A stretch of DNA of 64,000 nucleotides from Sediminicola sp. (GCA_024643325.1 JAHEND010000010.1:1-64000); one strand, 5' to 3'. Shown: positions 10,552-59,485, counted from the first letter of the stretch. Notes: generated by a model not told the origin, from the sequence alone. Program-made: numbers and translations.

Positions 10552-11217
10552 CTAGAAATCCAAATCATAAAATAGTCCCAACATATGACTATTTATAGCT
10601 GCTGTGTTTAGAGGGGTGTCTCTGTCTATGAAATAAGCGATCGTTAGAGCGTTTCCAGCGAGGCTCAGATCTGTTTGAAGTTTGTAACGCATGCGGTCAA
10701 ATCCACTTATGCTATTGCTTCCTAAGGGTTTAAAAAACTCTACAGATACTTGTGGGTCTGCTTTCCAGTTAGGTATTTTAAATTCAACAGCTGTTTTATA
10801 CCTCAAGTGATTTTCTGTGCGCGTTCCTTGTTTCTTTTCGGTGTCTTCCTGAAAGCGCAGTCTTTGCTTGAATCTTAATTGACGCCAAGAGGCCTTGTGT
10901 TTTAGTTCAGCAAAGAATCTGTAAAAAGTAAAATTTCCTTGTATCCCACCACTGCGGTCTAAAAGGGTTCCGTAACGGACACCAACAACACCACTAAAAG
11001 AGCTAGATAATTTGTAGCCCATACGCGCCTCTCCAAAATACCTGGAAATAGCATTTAGTCCAGCATTACTTCTAAAGGCTAGCGCTCCGTCTACATAAAT
11101 ACGGTCAGAGAGCTCAAAAGAACTGCTAGTAGCCGTCCAGATAGCGAGCTCCTTATTTTGAGCGAAGGCAGGTTTGGCCATTAGGGTCATTAAAAAAAGC
11201 GATAGTAGACATCTCAT
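10552..11217 (-). CDS. DUF2490 domain-containing protein
   Basis: Signal peptide; ELAIWTATSSSFELSDRIYVDGALAFR, beta-rich pattern, terminal F. Confidence 0.65.
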   Translation of the reverse strand: MRCLLSLFLMTLMAKPAFAQNKELAIWTATSSSFELSDRIYVDGALAFRSNAGLNAISRYFGEARMGYKLSSSFSGVVGVRYGTLLDRSGGIQGNFTFYRFFAELKHKASWRQLRFKQRLRFQEDTEKKQGTRTENHLRYKTAVEFKIPNWKADPQVSVEFFKPLGSNSISGFDRMRYKLQTDLSLAGNALTIAYFIDRDTPLNTAAINSHMLGLFYDLDF

Positions 11218-11236
11218 AAGTGTTTCAGTCAGGAAT

Positions 11237-11830
11237 TTAGTAGAAGAGTGTTACTTTAACACTTTGGGTCATAAGGTCAATTTTACCAATCTGGACTTTT
11301 TTAATATCCAGGCCAGTTTCTGCCACTAAAGAAGCAATTAAAGCATCTTTTTGGTCTGGTTTTATTAAAGCAGAATGAGGAATAACAATTTCCTGCTGTT
11401 TTAAAGAGAGCGGTGCCTTCATGACCCTTTCCAAAATCATTAGCATGGCAACCACCGCAATATTTCCAAAAAGAATTTCACCCATAGGGACCGCATTGGT
11501 AGAGAGCGCATTTATAACAGCCACTCCAATAATGACAAATAGGTAGGTCATTTCTTTAATGTCAATAGTATCAGTGCGGTAACGAATAATGCCAAAAACG
11601 GCAAAAAGACCAAGGGCTAGTCCAATATCCAATTCATTTCTTTTCAAGGAATAGCAAAGCAAAAAAACTACGGTACTTATCATGAAATAAGTAAACATAT
11701 AGGCTTTGTTTTGAGCGTATTTATAATAGATAAAGCGAATGATGATGGCAGTAAAAATAAAGTTTAATAAAAAACGCTCTACCAAATCAAAGAAAGTGAA
11801 TGTTTGTATAAAGGTGTTTAAAATTTCCAT
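11237..11830 (-). CDS. DUF4956 membrane protein
   Basis: Multi-TM N-terminus; LGLFAVFGIIRYRTDTIDIKEMTYLFVIIGVAVINAL. Confidence 0.75.
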   Translation of the reverse strand: MEILNTFIQTFTFFDLVERFLLNFIFTAIIIRFIYYKYAQNKAYMFTYFMISTVVFLLCYSLKRNELDIGLALGLFAVFGIIRYRTDTIDIKEMTYLFVIIGVAVINALSTNAVPMGEILFGNIAVVAMLMILERVMKAPLSLKQQEIVIPHSALIKPDQKDALIASLVAETGLDIKKVQIGKIDLMTQSVKVTLFY

Positions 11831-12430: not shown

Positions 12431-12865
12431 ATGGAGCGTAAAGAATTTATGAAATCTATTGGACAAGGCGCTGCTTTTACACTTACCTTTAGTTGTTTAA
12501 GTGGTTGTTTGGAAGCAGAAAATGGCCTGGCAGATCAGGCCTTAATTCCAGATGCTAATGGAGTCCTTTTCTCTTTAGATTTAAATAGTTCTGAGGGGCA
12601 ATCTTTAAAAAGTCCTGGAGATTATATCATTAAAAATACCGTTGTTATTGCGGTTAATCAGCAAGGTAACTACGTGGCAGCTACTCAGGTATGTAGTCAC
12701 AAAACCATAAAACAAGTTATTTTTAGAAACGATGAGTTTTACTGTACCGAGCACGGTGCTAGATTCACCCAGCAAGGAGTGGGTTTAAATTCAGACGCTT
12801 CGAAAGGATTATTAATTTATCCTATACAGGTACAGGGTCAAACACTGTCCATACTAGCCCCATAA
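12431..12865 (+). CDS. Rieske-type [2Fe-2S] lipoprotein
   Basis: CSH...CTEH ligand pairs (VCSHKTIKQVIFRNDEFYCTEHGARF); Cys after hydrophobic leader (SCLSGC). Confidence 0.82.
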   Translation: MERKEFMKSIGQGAAFTLTFSCLSGCLEAENGLADQALIPDANGVLFSLDLNSSEGQSLKSPGDYIIKNTVVIAVNQQGNYVAATQVCSHKTIKQVIFRNDEFYCTEHGARFTQQGVGLNSDASKGLLIYPIQVQGQTLSILAP

Positions 12866-12868
12866 CAT

Positions 12869-13309
12869 ATGAAAAAAATAATTTTTATAAGCTTACTTTT
12901 TATTTGCCAATTCGTTATTGCTCAGGAATGGGTGTCCAGTTGGGCCAATGCAACAGAAAAATCTACCACCTCAAATAAACCCATACTCTTGGTTTTTTCA
13001 GGTTCTGATTGGTGCGCCCCATGTATTAAATTAGATAGAGATATATGGGCAACAACAGTTTTTCAATCTTATGCTAAAGAACACTTAATACTTTATAAAG
13101 CAGATTTTCCCAGGAGAAAGGACAATCAACTACCAGAGCTTCTGGCATCTGAGAATAAGAAATTGGCTGAACAATACAACACTAAAGGTTATTTTCCTTT
13201 GGTGGTGTTGCTTTCTCCCAAAAAAGAGATTTTAGGGCAAACAGCTTATTTGAATATTTCTCCAGAAGCTTATATAGAAAAACTCCAAGACATGGCTTCC
13301 AATGAGTAA
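12869..13309 (+). CDS. Periplasmic thioredoxin-family protein
   Basis: Signal peptide; KPILLVFSGSDWCAPCIKLD CxxC motif. Confidence 0.88.
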   Translation: MKKIIFISLLFICQFVIAQEWVSSWANATEKSTTSNKPILLVFSGSDWCAPCIKLDRDIWATTVFQSYAKEHLILYKADFPRRKDNQLPELLASENKKLAEQYNTKGYFPLVVLLSPKKEILGQTAYLNISPEAYIEKLQDMASNE

Positions 13310-14300
13310 ATATGTTAAAAGCGCTCTGTTTTTCTGTTTTCTAATCCAAAGTTTAGTTTTTTCACAAGAGAATAAAATTGTGACTAGAACAGCTAAACTC
13401 ATGGGCAGTCGTTTCGAAATTACTTTGGTAAGTAACCAAAAAGAAGCCAACCTACATCTAGATATAGCACAAAAAGAAATAGAGAGAATAGAAAAGCTCA
13501 TATCTTCATGGGATCCCAATTCTGAAACATCTGCAATTAACAAAAATGCAGGTGAGCGACCTGTGAAAGTATCTCAAGAATTGTTTGGCCTTATAGAACG
13601 TTGTATCCAAATTTCAAAAGTTACCCAAGGTGCTTTTGATATTAGTTATGCTGCTTTAGACCCAGTTTGGGTATTTGATGGAAGTATGAAAACGCTTCCT
13701 TCACCAGAACAACTCCAAACATCTGTTGCTCATATAAACTACAAAGAGATTCAACTAGATGCCATTGACAATACCGTTTTTTTGCCTAAAAAAGGCATGA
13801 AAATAGGTTTTGGTGCTGTTGGAAAAGGCTATGCAGCAGACGCTACTAAAAAGTATTTGCAATCAATGGGAATAAAAGCTGGTATTATTAATGCCTCAGG
13901 AGATTTAACCACTTGGGGGAAAAAGCCAGATGGAACAGATTGGCAGGTAGGGATTAGCAATCCTGAAAACCCGTCCAAAGTATTTTCGTGGTTTCCAGTA
14001 AAAGATGCAGCAGTAGCCACTTCAGGAAATTATGAAAAATACGTAACTTTAAACGGAAAAAGCTATAGTCATATTATTGATCCAAGAAGTGGTATGCCTA
14101 TTTCTGGAATTAAGTCAGTAACTGTCTTTGCCCCAAATGGGGAATTGGCAGACGCTTTTGCTACTGCCGTTTTTATCATGGGTATAGATATAGGTATAAA
14201 CACCATTTCACAATTACCAGGCATGTCATGCATTATTGTAGATGCGGCTAATAAAATTCATTACAGTCCAAATATTGAAGTGACTGAAACTCAAAATTGA
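13302..14300 (+). CDS. apbE: FAD:protein FMN transferase
   Basis: MGSRFEITLV, FGAVGKGYAAD, YSHIIDPRSGMPISG, ADAFATAVFIMG motifs of ApbE. Confidence 0.93.
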   Translation: MSKYVKSALFFCFLIQSLVFSQENKIVTRTAKLMGSRFEITLVSNQKEANLHLDIAQKEIERIEKLISSWDPNSETSAINKNAGERPVKVSQELFGLIERCIQISKVTQGAFDISYAALDPVWVFDGSMKTLPSPEQLQTSVAHINYKEIQLDAIDNTVFLPKKGMKIGFGAVGKGYAADATKKYLQSMGIKAGIINASGDLTTWGKKPDGTDWQVGISNPENPSKVFSWFPVKDAAVATSGNYEKYVTLNGKSYSHIIDPRSGMPISGIKSVTVFAPNGELADAFATAVFIMGIDIGINTISQLPGMSCIIVDAANKIHYSPNIEVTETQN

Positions 14301-14512
14301 ATCACATGAAACATATAGTAGTTGTAGGACTTCTCTTATTTGCCTCCTCTTGTGTGGCTGTAAAAGAATATGAAAAGGTATATATCAATGCAGAAGATAT
14401 GGTTCTTAGTGCTAGAGGTGTTTGTAAGGCAGACATTAGTAGTCATGTTTATAGAGAAGGTGCAGCGGGAGCAAATGGCGGTAAAATGGGAGGCGGCTGC
14501 GGCTGTAATTAA
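14297..14512 (+). CDS. DUF4266 small lipoprotein with C-terminal GGGCGCN
   Basis: 71 aa; lipobox ASSC; VKEYEKVYINAEDMVL...GGKMGGGCGCN; start overlaps apbE stop. Confidence 0.82.
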   Translation: MNHMKHIVVVGLLLFASSCVAVKEYEKVYINAEDMVLSARGVCKADISSHVYREGAAGANGGKMGGGCGCN

Positions 14513-14515
14513 GTT

Positions 14516-15889
14516 ATGAAGTACGCATTTATTATCCTATTGTTTTTTAGTGTATTTGCCCTGAGAGCTCAAGAAAATGAAAGCATATATACCAAAAAAG
14601 TTTTAGAGAAAGTCAGTGTTCAAACACTTTTTAGTTACTATGCTCAGGATGGTCAAAATGCGGCTGTTACTGGAGGGGAAGGAACAGAGGAATTGACTAA
14701 TGCAGCTCCCACTATGGTGGTTCAAATTCCTATTGGAGAAAATGGAATCCTTTCGGTAGACGCCGGAATTTCAGCCTATACCTCTGCTTCTTCTAGTAAC
14801 GTGAATCCTTTTGATCGCAGTGCTTCCTGGGGAGATGACAACGACCATGATGACAAATATGAAGACCACGACGACAAATCTTTTGCTAGTACTCAAGCTT
14901 TATCTTATGTAAATGGAAACCAGGGAGCCAGCCCATGGGTCGCCTCTTCTGGAGCTTCTAGATCAGATGTACTGGCGCATTTTAATCCGAGTTATGCACA
15001 CTTTAGCGAAGACAGAAACACCATTTATAATGCGTCCCTAGCGTTTTCTAAAGAATACGATTATCAATCTATTGGTTTTGGTATGGGTATTAGTAAGCTT
15101 TATAATGAGAAAAACACTGAATTGGGTCTCAACCTTCAAGTGTATATGGACGAACATGATCCACAGTATCCCATAGAATTAAGAACGGGATTTTTTGATT
15201 CCAATATTCGTGGAGAAGGCACTTACACTAATGCTTTTGCTGCCTTTAGTCAGACTAAGCGAAACACCTATGCGCTCAGTCTAAATTTGGCTCAAATCTT
15301 GACAAATAAGATGCAAGTATCCTTTTTTATAGATGCCGTTATGCAAGAAGGATTGTTGTCTTCTCCTTTACAGAGGGTGTATTTTGCAGACAAAGAGAAT
15401 TTCTTTATAGATGCTTTTCAATTGGCAGACAACGTAGAAAGACTGCCCTTTTACAGGTATAAATACCCAGTGGGTGCTCGAATGAACTTCTACCTTTCTG
15501 ACACTTTTATTCTGAGATCTTATGCAAGATATTATGCAGATTCTTGGGGTGTCCAAGGGCTTACAGCAGAAATTGAGCTCCCCATAATTTTCGGTTTAAA
15601 TTGGGCTGTTTTTCCAAGCTTTAGACACTATAGTCAAACGGCAGCTGACTATTTTTATCCTAAAGAAATGGCGAAAAGTACTGACGAATACTATACCTCA
15701 GATTATGATCTCTCTGCTTTTAATAGCCAACAATGGGGTGTTGGAATTAGATACAAAGACATATTGGGCCAATTATCCCTTTGGAAAGTTGGTTTAAAAT
15801 CTATTGAACTACGCTATATTCATTACAATAGGAGTAATGGTTTAAGCTTTGATCAAACCGCCTTGGGCTTCAATTTTGACATTGATTAA
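14516..15889 (+). CDS. DUF3570 protein, probable outer-membrane beta-barrel
   Basis: Signal peptide; QDGQNAAVTGGEGTEELTNAAPTMVV; LSVDAGISAYTSASSSNVNPFD; alternating beta-strand pattern; follows DUF4266. Confidence 0.82.
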   Translation: MKYAFIILLFFSVFALRAQENESIYTKKVLEKVSVQTLFSYYAQDGQNAAVTGGEGTEELTNAAPTMVVQIPIGENGILSVDAGISAYTSASSSNVNPFDRSASWGDDNDHDDKYEDHDDKSFASTQALSYVNGNQGASPWVASSGASRSDVLAHFNPSYAHFSEDRNTIYNASLAFSKEYDYQSIGFGMGISKLYNEKNTELGLNLQVYMDEHDPQYPIELRTGFFDSNIRGEGTYTNAFAAFSQTKRNTYALSLNLAQILTNKMQVSFFIDAVMQEGLLSSPLQRVYFADKENFFIDAFQLADNVERLPFYRYKYPVGARMNFYLSDTFILRSYARYYADSWGVQGLTAEIELPIIFGLNWAVFPSFRHYSQTAADYFYPKEMAKSTDEYYTSDYDLSAFNSQQWGVGIRYKDILGQLSLWKVGLKSIELRYIHYNRSNGLSFDQTALGFNFDID

Positions 15890-15913
15890 TACAACGGATT
15901 GTACGAGAATAGA

Positions 15914-16402
15914 TTAAGCTTTATTAATAGTCAATGTATTGCCCGAGATACTTGAATTGTAACTGACCAAATCTCCGCTGCTAGCGTCTGAATTACAACT
16001 AACAGAGTTGTCTCCCGTACCAAAACTATTGCCGTGATTGGCACAATTAAAGGTGTTGTTCCCATAGCTCCACTGTGTTCTGGTGCCTTGATGTGGGCAG
16101 CAATTGTCAAAAGCTCTAATGGTGTCAGAGCTTACCCTTAAAAGCAGTACGCCTGCGGAAGTGAGATTCATCCAGCTGCCAACATTGGCCAATCCAGAAA
16201 AATTAGCTGCGTTTAGATCAATGGTAATGGTATTGCCATTTTGAGTGACACCATCCGTATCCGTATTGGTTTGTCCATTGTTTGTGGGAACTTTGGGCAT
16301 GGAGTCTTCTGAAGAAGAACAGGCTTGAATAAGCGACACGCCAAAGAAAGCAAACGCTACAGTAGGGCAGGTGGTTTTTAGAAATTCTCTTCTGTTTTTC
16401 AT
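15914..16402 (-). CDS. Rieske-type [2Fe-2S] lipoprotein, Tat signal
   Basis: NRREFLK twin-arginine motif, lipobox IQAC, ligands CPH...CANH; C-terminus resembles the 12431 Rieske (NSDAS-G). Confidence 0.85.
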   Translation of the reverse strand: MKNRREFLKTTCPTVAFAFFGVSLIQACSSSEDSMPKVPTNNGQTNTDTDGVTQNGNTITIDLNAANFSGLANVGSWMNLTSAGVLLLRVSSDTIRAFDNCCPHQGTRTQWSYGNNTFNCANHGNSFGTGDNSVSCNSDASSGDLVSYNSSISGNTLTINKA

Positions 16403-53981: not shown

Positions 53982-55145
53982 TTATTCGGTGATTAAATTA
54001 AACACACCTTTTGTTAAAAATTCTGTGCCTTCTTTAAAATCATTTGCATTTAAGATTTCAATAAAATCACTATTTGTAGCTCCAATTTTAACCATTACCT
54101 TTCTAAAATTTGTTTCATTTTCTTTTTCTAACACAAAAAAGTTATTGTCTATTTGGGCAACAGCATCTATAGGTAGTGCTAAATGTTCTTGAGAAGAAGT
54201 CACAATTTCACCTTCTATGTACATGCCTGGAGCAAATAGTTTTGTTTCATTCTCGTTTAACAAATCTCCATGTATCGCTATTGTTCTGTCTTGATTGCTT
54301 ATTGCTTTATTTATTAAGTGGACTTTACCGCTATAAATCTTAGGATGATTTTGTAGTTTAATATTCATTAAATGCCCTTCTTTAACAATTGAATAATCTT
54401 TTTCAAATATTTTCAATTCAATATGTAACTCGTCGGTATTAGTTACCGTTACAGCAACATCTGAAGGATTTAAAAATGCCCCTTTTGTTGCGTTAATGGA
54501 GGTGGCATAACCCGTTAAAGGAGATGTAACACTAATAATCGATTGAATGTTTTCTCCAGTTAATAGGTTTGGATCAATGTTCATTAAACTCAATCTCTTC
54601 TTTAGAGATTGAAAGCGTGCTAAAGTTACCGCATACTCTGATTCTGCCTTTAATAATTTTTTCTGAGAGGTAATATTGTCATCAATTAACTCTTTTTGGC
54701 GTTCATAGTCAGATTTTAGATAGTTTAGACGCCCTTTAGCTTCTAGAAATTCTTGCTGAATTGTAACATACGCGGGATTTTCAATAGTAAATAAGGTTTG
54801 TCCTTTTCTGACAGGGTCACCAGGTAACAAACTAATATTTTTTACATATCCTTCAAAATAAGTACTTACATCTGACTGATTTTCTGGAGGAACAGCAAAC
54901 ATTCCATTTGCTTTTACAATGGTATTAAATGATTGTCTTGTAATTTTACCAACCTTCATACTACCAGATAAAAACTGGTTTTCTGTAATAGTAATTAAAT
55001 CTTTATTCTGGGTTGTTTCAATAATACCTGTTTCAATTGTTTTGTTCTTTTCATTTGAATTACAAGAACTGAAAACTATTATTGCCACTAATAAAAGGTT
55101 TCTGAAGTGCATAGAATTTGATATAATGCTGGGGGTGTTTTTCAT
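53982..55145 (-). CDS. Efflux RND transporter periplasmic adaptor (CusB/CzcB-like)
   Basis: Lipobox FSSC; GYVKNISLLPGDPVRKGQTLFTIENPAYVTIQQEFLEAKGRL. Confidence 0.9.
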   Translation of the reverse strand: MKNTPSIISNSMHFRNLLLVAIIVFSSCNSNEKNKTIETGIIETTQNKDLITITENQFLSGSMKVGKITRQSFNTIVKANGMFAVPPENQSDVSTYFEGYVKNISLLPGDPVRKGQTLFTIENPAYVTIQQEFLEAKGRLNYLKSDYERQKELIDDNITSQKKLLKAESEYAVTLARFQSLKKRLSLMNIDPNLLTGENIQSIISVTSPLTGYATSINATKGAFLNPSDVAVTVTNTDELHIELKIFEKDYSIVKEGHLMNIKLQNHPKIYSGKVHLINKAISNQDRTIAIHGDLLNENETKLFAPGMYIEGEIVTSSQEHLALPIDAVAQIDNNFFVLEKENETNFRKVMVKIGATNSDFIEILNANDFKEGTEFLTKGVFNLITE

Positions 55146-55147
55146 AT

Positions 55148-58100
55148 TTAATTGGTTAAATAATTTAATTCCAACACGGTGTTGTTATACTTATTGAGGC
55201 TATGTAGATAGCTAATTTCAATATTTCTTGAACTCTCTAATAGTTGCACATATTGCAAGAAATCTATTTCACCGTTTTGAAATGCTTTTGAAGCGGTTAA
55301 TTTCAATTCTAAAGAGAGTTGCCGTCCTGTAGTTACATAATAATCAACCGTTTCTTGATATTTTTTTAAATCAGAAATTAAGCTATTATATTTTGTTTGT
55401 AGTTGAATTTTGAAGTTCTCAAATTCGTTTGCTGCAATAAATGTTTCGGTTTTTGCTGCATTGATTTTTGATTTGTTAAACCCAAACCATAAAGGTATTG
55501 CAATACCCATCTGAAAACCATTATAATTTCTTGTATTAATGCCATTATTAGTGCCTTGAAAAACTGAAAATTGCAAATCTGGCAAGAGCTTTTGCCTCTC
55601 CAGCGAAAGGGTGTATTTAGTTAAATTTTTTATAGAATTGTAATATAAAATCCCTGGGTTATTTGTAATGTTTGGTTTGTCTAAAGCCAGTCTTGGTAGT
55701 GTGTTTTCACTGACAATAATTAATGAATCACTTTGCACCCATTGATTGAGTATTGTATATGCTTTTAAAACGTCTTCTTTAGCCTGTGCCAGTGAAATGC
55801 TAATTTCTTTTTGTTTTGTTTCAGCGGTTAATTTTTCTAATAAATTAGTTTCTCCTACTTCATATCGCTTTTTAGCTGCACTAGCAAATTGTCTATATAA
55901 ACTATCTAAAGACCTATATTGATCAACTAAATTTTGACTGAAGACCACATTGTAATAAGACCTTAAAGCTTCTTTAGTAACTATCCTTTTGTTTAACTCA
56001 TAGCGCTGAATGGCTAATGCTACTTTTTGTTTTTCTACTTTGTGTTGTGCACCATAAATAGTTGGAAATTTAAGTGATTGACTCACTCCAAAAACTCGAA
56101 GGGGAAGGCCATTTTCAGCTATATTATTTTGGTCATAACCATAATAAACATGTGTTTTATCTATGTTAAAGGCACTACCCACTAATTGTTCGGATTGATT
56201 GATTCTTATTGCGTTGGCTTTTAATTCCTTATTATTTTCAATGGCCAATTTCACTGTATGATCTGCCCCAATTGAATTTTGCTGTGCGCTACCAACTATT
56301 GGTGTAAGTAAGACCGCTGTAATACCTATAAGTTTGGAGTTAATTTTGGCTTTTAGCTTTGGAGCATGCCCATTTCTGTCAAACATAGCATATAAAATTG
56401 GTAGCACAACAAGTGTTAGTGCAGTTGCGGTAATTAACCCTCCAACCACTACGGTAGCTAAAGGTCTTTGCACTTCTGCTCCCGCAGATGTAGAAATAGC
56501 CATAGGTAAAAAGCCTAAGGCAGCAGCAGCGGCGGTTAGCAATACAGGTCGCAATCTATTTTTTGTCCCCATTAATATTCGTTTATTGATATTATTTATA
56601 CCATGCGCTTTTAATTCTTTAAATTCCTCAATCAAAACAATACCGTTGAGTACCGCAATTCCGAAGAGTGCAATAAAACCTACACCTGCCGAAATACTAA
56701 AAGGTAAATCTCGAATATAAAGCAGCATTACACCACCTATAGCAGACAAAGGAATGGCACTATAAATCATTAAAGCTTCTTTAACTGAATTAAAAGCAAA
56801 ATAGAGTAAAACATAAATCAAGATTAATGCAATTGGCACGGCTATTTTTAATCTGGCTGTTGCCGTTCTTAAATTTTCAAATTGCCCCCCATAACTTACA
56901 GAATATCCTGTAGGCATTTTCACCTCTTTTTCAATAATTGATTGTACATCTTTTACAACTGACTCTAAATCTCTATTTCTAACATTTACGCCAACCACAA
57001 TTCTACGTTTGGTATTGTCTCTCGAAATTTTTGCTGGTCCTTTGGTGTATTTTATGGTGGCAAATTCGCTGAGTGGTAATTTTATTCCACTAGGTAGAGA
57101 TATAGATGCTGTTTCTATATTTTCAATATCTTTTCTGTGTGATTTATCATAGCGTATCATTAAATCAAATTGTTTTTCGCCTTCAAACACTGTTCCTGCG
57201 TTCATTCCTGCAAATCCCATAGTAATGACTTTATTTAAGTCTTCAATATTCATTCCGTATTTAGCAATTTTTTGTCGGTCATATGTTACTGACATCTGAG
57301 GCAAGCCCGCTGTTTTTTCCACCGAAATATCTGCAGCTCCCTCAACGTTCTGAATTGCTTTTTCTATTTCTAAAGCTTTTCTATATAAGACATCTAAATC
57401 TTCTCCAAAAATTTTAATGGCTAAATCTGCTCTAACACCTGTAATCAATTCATTAAATCGCATTTCAATCGGTTGGGTAAATTCAAAATCTACTCCTGCT
57501 ATCTGGTTAGATAATGCCTCTTTAAATTTGTCTGCCAGTTTATCCTTAGATTCAGCAGAGGTCCATTTGTCTTTTGGTTTTAGTTTTATAATCACATCAC
57601 TTTCTTCCATAGACATTGGGTCAGTTGGTACTTCTGCAGCACCAATCCTACTCACTACTTGTTCTACTTCTGGAAATTTCTTCAGTATTTTTTCCATCTG
57701 GGTAGTAGCCTCAATGGTTTTACTCAATGAAGTTCCTGTTTTTAATACGGGCTGTATGACAAAATCACCTTCATCTAAAGTTGGTACAAACTCGCCACCC
57801 ATTCTTGTAAATAAAAACCCAGTGAAAAATAGTAAGCCTACAGCTATACTTAATACTATTTCTTTTTTACGCAAAGCCCATGCAATAGTGGGCACATATT
57901 TATCTTCTAAAAAAGAGATCAATCGAGATGAAATGGTTTTCTTTTCAGGATTATTTGGTTTAATAAACAAAGAAGACATAACAGGTATGTAGGTGAAACA
58001 GAGTATCATAGCACCTATTAGAGCAAAACAGAATACCAATGCCATAGGGCGAAACATTTTTCCCTCTACACCTACTAAAGATAGAATTGGGATAAAAACT

Positions 58101-59485
58101 ATAATAATAATCAATTGTCCAAAAACAGCAGAATTCATCATTTTAGAGGCGCCTCTATATGTAATCTCATCAATTAAACCTTGCCTTTCGTTTTCAGGAA
58201 GTGAGAATAAATTTGAGCGTTGACTAGTAATTTTAAAGGCTATGAACTCTACAATAATTACAGCGCCATCAATAATAATTCCAAAGTCAATGGCTCCCAG
58301 ACTCATTAGATTGGCATCTACACCAAAAATGTACATCATTGAGAGTGCAAATAAAAGACATAAGGGGATTACGGAAACAACTACCAATCCAGAGCGCCAG
58401 TTTCCCAAAAGCAAAACCACTACAAAAATTACTATTAAACAGCCTAAAATTAGGTTTTCTGCAATGGTAAACGTTGTTTTTGCAATAAGCTCACTACGCT
58501 CTAAAAATGGATTGATGGTAATACCCGGCGGTAGAGAAGACTGAATCTCTGCTACACGTTGTTTAACGGCTTGAATAACTTCATTTGAGTTAGCATCTTT
58601 AAGCATCATTACTTGTCCAAGAACTTTTTCACCTTCGCCATTCCCTGTTATTGCTCCAAAACGATTTGCGTGACCAAATCCAACAACAGCAACATCCCTA
58701 ACATAAACCGGAACACTTCCTTTTTTTAATACTACAATGTCTTCAAGGTCTTTTATTGAACTTATTAGTCCCTCACCTCTAATAAAATAACTCTCATTAA
58801 TTTTTTCAATATAACCCCCTCCCGCAATACTATTATTTTTTTCGAGAGCAGAAAAAACATCAACAATAGAAACATCCATAGCACGAAGTTGCTCTGGATT
58901 TATGGCCACTTCATAGGTTTTTAAATAGCCACCCCAAGTATTTACTTCTACTACCCCAGGAATACCTGAAAGTTGTCTTTTTACTACCCAGTCTTGAATA
59001 GTACGAAGGTCTGATAGTGAATATTGGTCTTTGTGTTTGGCGTCTACATCAATGACATATTGATAAATTTCACCCAGACCTGTAGAGACTGGACCCATAA
59101 ATGGTTTTCCGAAACCAGAAGGAATTTTTTCTTCAGCACTTTTTATTTTTTCTGCTATGAGCTGACGCGGTAAATATGTCCCCATTTCATCATTAAATAC
59201 AATGGTTACAACCGATAAACCAAACTTAGAGATAGAACGAATTTCTTTTACACCAGGCAAGTTTGCCATTTCTAACTCTACTGGGTATGTTATGAACTTT
59301 TCAACATCTTCTGTTGCTAAGTTCCTTGAAGTTGTAATAACCTGAACTTGATTATTGGTTACATCTGGTACCGCTCCAATAGGAATATTAGAAAGGGAAT
59401 AAATACCAAATCCTACAATTCCAGCAGTAAATAATAGTATTATAAGTTTGTGGTGAATACTATATTGGATAATACGTGCTAACAT
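55148..59485 (-). CDS. CusA/CzcA heavy-metal RND transporter fused to TolC-like outer-membrane factor
   Basis: N-term IPIGAVPDVTNNQVQVIT, GAIDFGIIIDGAVIIVE; after about residue 1040 a TolC-like region (KLAIENNKELKANAIRINQSEQLVGSAFNI...NEFENFKIQLQTKYNSLISDLKKYQ). Confidence 0.93.
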   Translation of the reverse strand: MLARIIQYSIHHKLIILLFTAGIVGFGIYSLSNIPIGAVPDVTNNQVQVITTSRNLATEDVEKFITYPVELEMANLPGVKEIRSISKFGLSVVTIVFNDEMGTYLPRQLIAEKIKSAEEKIPSGFGKPFMGPVSTGLGEIYQYVIDVDAKHKDQYSLSDLRTIQDWVVKRQLSGIPGVVEVNTWGGYLKTYEVAINPEQLRAMDVSIVDVFSALEKNNSIAGGGYIEKINESYFIRGEGLISSIKDLEDIVVLKKGSVPVYVRDVAVVGFGHANRFGAITGNGEGEKVLGQVMMLKDANSNEVIQAVKQRVAEIQSSLPPGITINPFLERSELIAKTTFTIAENLILGCLIVIFVVVLLLGNWRSGLVVVSVIPLCLLFALSMMYIFGVDANLMSLGAIDFGIIIDGAVIIVEFIAFKITSQRSNLFSLPENERQGLIDEITYRGASKMMNSAVFGQLIIIIVFIPILSLVGVEGKMFRPMALVFCFALIGAMILCFTYIPVMSSLFIKPNNPEKKTISSRLISFLEDKYVPTIAWALRKKEIVLSIAVGLLFFTGFLFTRMGGEFVPTLDEGDFVIQPVLKTGTSLSKTIEATTQMEKILKKFPEVEQVVSRIGAAEVPTDPMSMEESDVIIKLKPKDKWTSAESKDKLADKFKEALSNQIAGVDFEFTQPIEMRFNELITGVRADLAIKIFGEDLDVLYRKALEIEKAIQNVEGAADISVEKTAGLPQMSVTYDRQKIAKYGMNIEDLNKVITMGFAGMNAGTVFEGEKQFDLMIRYDKSHRKDIENIETASISLPSGIKLPLSEFATIKYTKGPAKISRDNTKRRIVVGVNVRNRDLESVVKDVQSIIEKEVKMPTGYSVSYGGQFENLRTATARLKIAVPIALILIYVLLYFAFNSVKEALMIYSAIPLSAIGGVMLLYIRDLPFSISAGVGFIALFGIAVLNGIVLIEEFKELKAHGINNINKRILMGTKNRLRPVLLTAAAAALGFLPMAISTSAGAEVQRPLATVVVGGLITATALTLVVLPILYAMFDRNGHAPKLKAKINSKLIGITAVLLTPIVGSAQQNSIGADHTVKLAIENNKELKANAIRINQSEQLVGSAFNIDKTHVYYGYDQNNIAENGLPLRVFGVSQSLKFPTIYGAQHKVEKQKVALAIQRYELNKRIVTKEALRSYYNVVFSQNLVDQYRSLDSLYRQFASAAKKRYEVGETNLLEKLTAETKQKEISISLAQAKEDVLKAYTILNQWVQSDSLIIVSENTLPRLALDKPNITNNPGILYYNSIKNLTKYTLSLERQKLLPDLQFSVFQGTNNGINTRNYNGFQMGIAIPLWFGFNKSKINAAKTETFIAANEFENFKIQLQTKYNSLISDLKKYQETVDYYVTTGRQLSLELKLTASKAFQNGEIDFLQYVQLLESSRNIEISYLHSLNKYNNTVLELNYLTN

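Follow-up and report, generated by a model that had tools for sequence, protein, structure and literature searches.

A six-gene locus at positions 12,431 to 16,402 of a 64,000-nucleotide stretch of Sediminicola sp. DNA (GCA_024643325.1 JAHEND010000010.1:1-64000; the whole stretch is called the window, and positions are counted from its first letter) is, in our judgement, quite probably a Bacteroidota version of the ApbE-DUF3570-thioredoxin-DUF4266 module already on record, together with an optional Rieske lipoprotein. Since clusters of ApbE with DUF3570, a PF13899 thioredoxin-like protein and DUF4266, with and without DsbD, were reported by Meheust et al. (2021, eLife 10:e66878, PMC8238504), the proposal that this module is undescribed, made in a sequence-only reading of the DNA, does not hold for the four-gene core and survives only where the Rieske genes are concerned. 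The same reading's proposal of a redox/flavinylation module with DUF3570 as the client of ApbE is upheld by the published experiment on the Chlorobium luteolum homologue, which was flavinylated by ApbE and lost the flavin only when both sites were mutated (PMC8238504), and both sites are conserved here. Two modest novelties go beyond the published work: the added Rieske genes and the barrel topology predicted for DUF3570.

The locus and its published counterpart

A profile search of the open reading frames (ORFs) of the window recovered all six genes at the positions first proposed, each matching its proposed family above the Pfam cut-off. By inspection, all six products carry export signals, with lipoboxes in the two Rieske proteins and DUF4266.

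12431-12865, + strand: Rieske lipoprotein 1 (Rie1), first gene of the operon (PF00355, 27.6 bits, cut-off 20.3)
12869-13309, + strand: exported thioredoxin-like protein with WCAPC, DsbH-like, without a lipobox (PF13899, Thioredoxin_7, 3.6e-14)
13302-14300, + strand: exported ApbE, flavin adenine dinucleotide (FAD):protein flavin mononucleotide (FMN) transferase (PF02424, 1.6e-83)
14306-14512 from ATG (alternative TTG at 14297), + strand: small DUF4266 lipoprotein ending GGGCGCN (PF14086, 5.8e-14)
14516-15889, + strand: DUF3570, modelled as a 16-stranded outer-membrane beta-barrel and predicted to be doubly flavinylated (PF12094, 9.1e-32)
14780-14791, + strand: predicted DUF3570 flavinylation site 1, TSAS, residues 89-92
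14948-14959, + strand: predicted DUF3570 flavinylation site 2, SGAS, residues 145-148
15914-16402, - strand: Rieske lipoprotein 2 (Rie2), with the twin-arginine translocation (Tat) motif RREFLK (PF00355, 30.4 bits)

The five plus-strand genes follow one another with 3-bp gaps or overlaps throughout. Of the nearly gapless spacing claimed initially, the 8-bp overlap of the thioredoxin and apbE genes holds, and the 4-bp overlap of apbE with the DUF4266 gene depends on the TTG start; the ATG at 14306 is probably the start, because it fits the lipoprotein signals of homologues better, and would leave a 5-bp gap after apbE. The second Rieske gene had been called divergent, which is correct for its sequence (Rie1 and Rie2 are 22-24% identical) and incorrect for its orientation, as it converges tail to tail on the DUF3570 gene with 24 bp between the stop codons. 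A scan for the Bacteroidota -7 promoter motif was uninformative (68 matches against 87 expected).

As in the published module, ApbE, a two-site DUF3570, a PF13899 thioredoxin-like protein and a DUF4266 with a C-terminal CXC, a feature highlighted by its authors, are all adjacent in the window. Among the published clusters of DsbD with ApbE, DUF3570 occurs in 227, PF13899 in 183 and DUF4266 in 221, and a further 316 four-gene clusters lack DsbD (PMC8238504); the window resembles this latter subset, with its single DsbD gene lying elsewhere in the host genome (contig C15). It differs from the published module in its two Rieske lipoprotein genes, one placed first in the operon and the other convergent with it.

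To survey conservation, 95 DUF3570 loci from relatives and from the order, class and phylum were annotated with hidden Markov models (HMMs) from the window proteins; the loci were collected through Pfam families because a single-sequence scan of contigs found just two near relatives. The neighbourhood survey suggested in the sequence-only reading thus shows DUF4266 and DUF3570 co-occurring with apbE and the thioredoxin gene as a block, which was recognised in 68 of the 86 Bacteroidia loci and in 34 genera. This arrangement is far from chance. Several of the remaining Bacteroidia loci are cut by contig ends or affected by the simple ORF caller, and some have no thioredoxin gene beside apbE (e.g., L104 and L114). 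The full order including both Rieske genes is kept in three other species of the same genus (L037, L038 and L039). Beyond this genome, gene order is conserved for the core, and for the Rieske position only in a minority of lineages. Outside the class Bacteroidia the order is DUF4266-DUF3570-ApbE, with DsbD in some loci.

Three of the loci outside the class (L175, L177 and L179) encode a NusG_II-domain protein of ~220 amino acids between DUF3570 and ApbE, and one cluster (L182, 4257-12534) combines four DUF3570 and two DUF4266 genes with ApbE and DsbD. A DUF3570 gene at L137 (7605-8873) adjoins none of ApbE, thioredoxin or DUF4266 and has SGES in place of SGAS at its second site; it is possibly a decaying copy.

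The host assembly (G000; 1.96 Mb, 35 contigs, 89.7% complete), whose closest named DUF3570 relative is from a Flavobacteriaceae metagenome-assembled genome (92% identity), contains two apbE genes, the window copy and another at the end of an nqrA-F operon on contig C29 (nqr genes named by eye). FMN_bind domains were found in this assembly only in NqrC and in a nearly identical copy carried by a 6-kb contig. The sequence-only reading was therefore correct that the cluster lacks an FMN_bind gene; NqrC, with its own ApbE, lies elsewhere in the genome. With no FMN_bind partner at hand and NqrC separately provided for, the window ApbE is free to act on DUF3570 and presumably dedicated to it. It resembles solved FMN transferases (PDB 7esa, 2.2e-48, residues 30-322). 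A role as the enzyme of NqrC was considered for it and ruled out, since the nqr operon carries its own ApbE. The second nqrC fragment (G000:C5, L021, against G000:C29, L022) suggests that a second strain is present in the assembly.

DUF3570 and its thiol partners

In an alignment of 66 DUF3570 sequences (A1), S90, A91 and S92 of site 1 and S148 of site 2 are invariant (66/66), and position 145 is Ser or Thr in all 66. The family motif is [ST][GS]AS, looser than [ST]GA[ST]: the second position of site 1 is Ser and not Gly in the window, as in all other sequences of the alignment, and the second site is SSAS in many members. The window protein is thus predicted, by analogy with its studied homologue, to be flavinylated at both sites, the modified residue presumably being the last Ser (S92 and S148), as in NqrC. 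The chemistry would be that of the FMN_bind proteins NqrC and RnfG, in which ApbE attaches FMN covalently to Ser or Thr of [ST]xA[ST]; the carrier differs, being an outer-membrane barrel and not an FMN_bind domain.

A search by sequence found no solved homologue of DUF3570. AlphaFold, run on the same alignment, gave a model with a predicted local distance difference test score (pLDDT) of 86 and a predicted template modelling score (pTM) of 0.79, in which DSSP assigns 16 strands; the segment between the two flavin sites (104-135) is of low confidence. Foldseek matched the model to OprD/OccK porins, OmpG, PelB and AlgE with a probability of 1.00 and template modelling (TM) scores of only ~0.3-0.4, and for this reason the modelled kinship to porins and export barrels is one of barrel type only. 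The closed, even-stranded model and the signal peptide are those of an outer-membrane barrel.

Strand parity places the two flavin sites together in a 62-residue loop, on the side of the modelled barrel that has the long loops. Of the 37 near-invariant positions (conservation of 98% or more), 34 fall on this side, compared with 249 of 424 positions overall, and none of 20,000 draws of a strand-only permutation was as extreme, indicating that the long-loop side is the functional face. The long loops of outer-membrane barrels usually lie outside, and the flavin-bearing face is accordingly predicted from the model to be extracellular. The reverse orientation, a periplasm-facing outer-membrane flavoprotein whose conserved long-loop face is turned inward, strikes us as somewhat unlikely. 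It would agree with the placing of ApbE and all partners, which are periplasmic or lipoproteins, and the orientation was deduced from strand parity and loop length only; the even strand number, the N-terminal signal peptide and the short turns on the opposite side nevertheless fit the rule that long loops lie outside.

The thioredoxin has one solved relative at the threshold reached, a thioredoxin disulfide isomerase (PDB 2ju5, 2.4e-16), and the two cysteines of its active site are kept in 73 of 74 homologues. Because its best NCBIfam match, DsbH, scores 87 against a cut-off of 190, the protein is classed from its sequence as DsbH-like and not as DsbH. The C-terminal CGC of DUF4266 is invariant in 93 of 93 homologues, none of which contains the [ST]GA[ST] flavinylation motif. 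DUF4266, which the sequence-only reading had offered as a possible client of ApbE, is therefore very unlikely to be flavinylated, and this candidate was dropped.

The Rieske lipoproteins

Both Rieske proteins contain a CxH-x(n)-CxxH ligand set (C88, H90, C105 and H108 in Rie1), and the AlphaFold model of Rie1, the one compared by structure, has a Rieske fold that matches dioxygenase ferredoxins and PetC3. These ligands and this fold are shared with Rieske ferredoxins and AioB/PetC-type proteins; the window proteins differ in their lipoprotein signals and in having no oxygenase or bc complex nearby. Neither contains the disulfide cysteines of the bc1/b6f type (CTHxxC, CPCH), which are present in other Rieske proteins of the order, L186 and L187 among them. 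Lack of these cysteines favours a lower potential, one compatible with flavins. Rie1 has RKEFMK where Rie2 has RREFLK, and export of the two proteins is supported by the presence of TatC in the host genome. Membership of a bc complex or an oxygenase was considered and rejected, given that no such genes lie nearby, the disulfide box is missing and no further Rieske gene was found in the assembly.

A search that started from the DUF3570 loci found a co-directional Rieske gene directly upstream of the thioredoxin gene in 17 loci (11 genera, three families), two of them with decayed copies (L109 and L171). A reciprocal search with a Rieske profile added four genomes from a fourth family (f17), representing two genera, which brings the operons with a leading Rieske gene to at least 13 genera in four families of Bacteroidia. 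Few forks of the Rieske tree are well supported; Rie1-type operon proteins cluster (93/96) and Rie2 is unplaced. Rie2 is confined to the genus of the window, where four loci have this arrangement. Since the operon position is kept in a minority of lineages and was repeatedly lost or decayed, we infer that the Rieske protein is a real but accessory member of the module, at most an accessory electron carrier. The words "Rieske", "barrel" and "efflux" are absent from the main text of PMC8238504, and a literature search linking Rieske proteins and ApbE returned nothing on this subject, as judged by titles and abstracts.

In many loci of family f5 the place held elsewhere by the Rieske gene, directly upstream of the thioredoxin gene, is occupied by an exported protein of ~129 amino acids that has no Pfam match (L147, 5281-5670, and 17 similar). 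A related Rieske lipoprotein heads a different cluster in a genome of the same family (G354; L185, 5608-9135), followed by DOMON/Por_Secre_tail, tRNA_anti-like, DUF5777 barrel and YceI genes, and DUF5777-like neighbours were also seen by eye beside Rieske genes in L210 and L225. This cluster resembles the window in that a Rieske lipoprotein of like kind is encoded next to a protein of a predicted membrane beta-barrel family, and differs in lacking ApbE, thioredoxin and DUF4266 and in its barrel family; it is possibly a second Rieske-barrel redox module.

A possible electron route and its alternatives

The published model proposes a hybrid thioredoxin/flavin chain that draws its electrons from DsbD (PMC8238504). 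For the window, the best-supported reading is a corresponding haem-free route to the outer membrane, which would begin with the attachment of FMN by ApbE to S92 and S148 of DUF3570, as shown for the C. luteolum homologue. DUF3570 would then insert into the outer membrane as a barrel of 16 strands, its two flavins lying on the long-loop face. Electrons would pass as thiols from DsbD to the DsbH-like thioredoxin, the CXC of the DUF4266 lipoprotein and finally DUF3570, and the Rieske lipoprotein may exchange single electrons with this chain, either splitting the two-electron steps of thiols and flavins or receiving electrons. The likely task would be to reduce an acceptor at the cell surface, such as a metal, or to sense its redox state. 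The fullest form of this proposal, in which DUF3570 is a haem-free conduit with two covalent surface flavins that thioredoxin, a CXC lipoprotein and, in some lineages, also Rieske lipoproteins supply with electrons, is speculative and, in our estimate, unlikely; if true, the conduit would be a flavin, thiol and iron-sulphur counterpart of the multihaem porin-cytochrome conduits. If the surface orientation is right, the system would let electrons of some Bacteroidota cross the outer membrane without haem.

The genes beside the block in other genomes make a metal-related surface redox role the likeliest reading. CusA/CzcA-type RND pumps with CusB-like adaptors adjoin the block in 25 loci from 10 genera, two-component regulators in 21 loci, VIT1 in 13 loci from seven genera and FecI/FecR/TonB-receptor genes in six loci, counts that are not independent because two genera that were sampled heavily (g46 and g30) supply many of them. 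VIT1 was also present in 25 of the published clusters (PMC8238504). In one congener without Rieske genes (L031, 9351-13083), a FecI/FecR/TonB-receptor set directly follows DUF3570.

Several observations weigh against a surface route with a Rieske component. The flanks of the cluster in the window look like housekeeping genes, with no metal or acceptor gene adjoining. Flavins on the outer face would be difficult for periplasmic ApbE to reach, and modification would therefore be needed before membrane insertion. About four fifths of the DUF3570 loci lack the Rieske gene; the L109 copy, between a sulfatase gene and the thioredoxin gene, is a frameshifted pseudogene (10881-11460), the L171 copy lacks the second cluster cysteine, and thioredoxin-ApbE adjoins only six, the window copy included, of the 30 top Rieske relatives from the class.

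The decayed copies and the small share of Rieske relatives that adjoin thioredoxin-ApbE would also fit if the Rieske genes were neighbours without a functional role in the module, members of a widespread Bacteroidota lipoprotein family inserted ancestrally before the module and travelling or decaying with it. Profile matches in 204 of 345 Bacteroidia genomes, the absence of the gene from the syntenic sister loci L113 and L118 and the occurrence of a related Rieske protein in the DUF5777 cluster described above are consistent with this explanation. It is nonetheless unlikely in our estimation, since position and strand are the same in all the genera counted, with gaps usually of a few to ~130 bases, and since, of the 80 genomes of the order that contain DUF3570, 10 have a Rieske gene there (one a pseudogene), compared with an estimated chance adjacency of ~0.1% per genome (most genomes with any Rieske gene have 1-4). 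A maturation system running in the oxidising direction, in which thioredoxin and DUF4266 tend the thiols that bind metals or Fe-S clusters, the flavin barrel acts as the last oxidant and envelope proteins such as the Rieske cluster are matured or protected instead of electrons being exported, would suit the many loci with adjoining metal-efflux genes and the fact that thioredoxin and CXC proteins also act in cofactor assembly; it is improbable, however, given the relation of the thioredoxin to 2ju5 and, below the cut-off, to the disulfide reductase DsbH, the placing of DsbD as electron source in the published model and the occurrence of the module mostly without Rieske.

The DUF3570 system, published but functionally unexplained, thus gains a topology, that of an outer-membrane barrel predicted to hold its flavins on a conserved and probably outer face, and in some lineages an extra redox partner, lost in sister species; deleting genes in relatives that can be cultured would therefore test its role directly.

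The window also encodes, 40 kb from the cluster (53982-59485, - strand), a CusA/CzcA-type RND pump with a fused OEP domain (1445 amino acids) and a CusB-like adaptor, a pair like those found next to DUF3570 clusters elsewhere.

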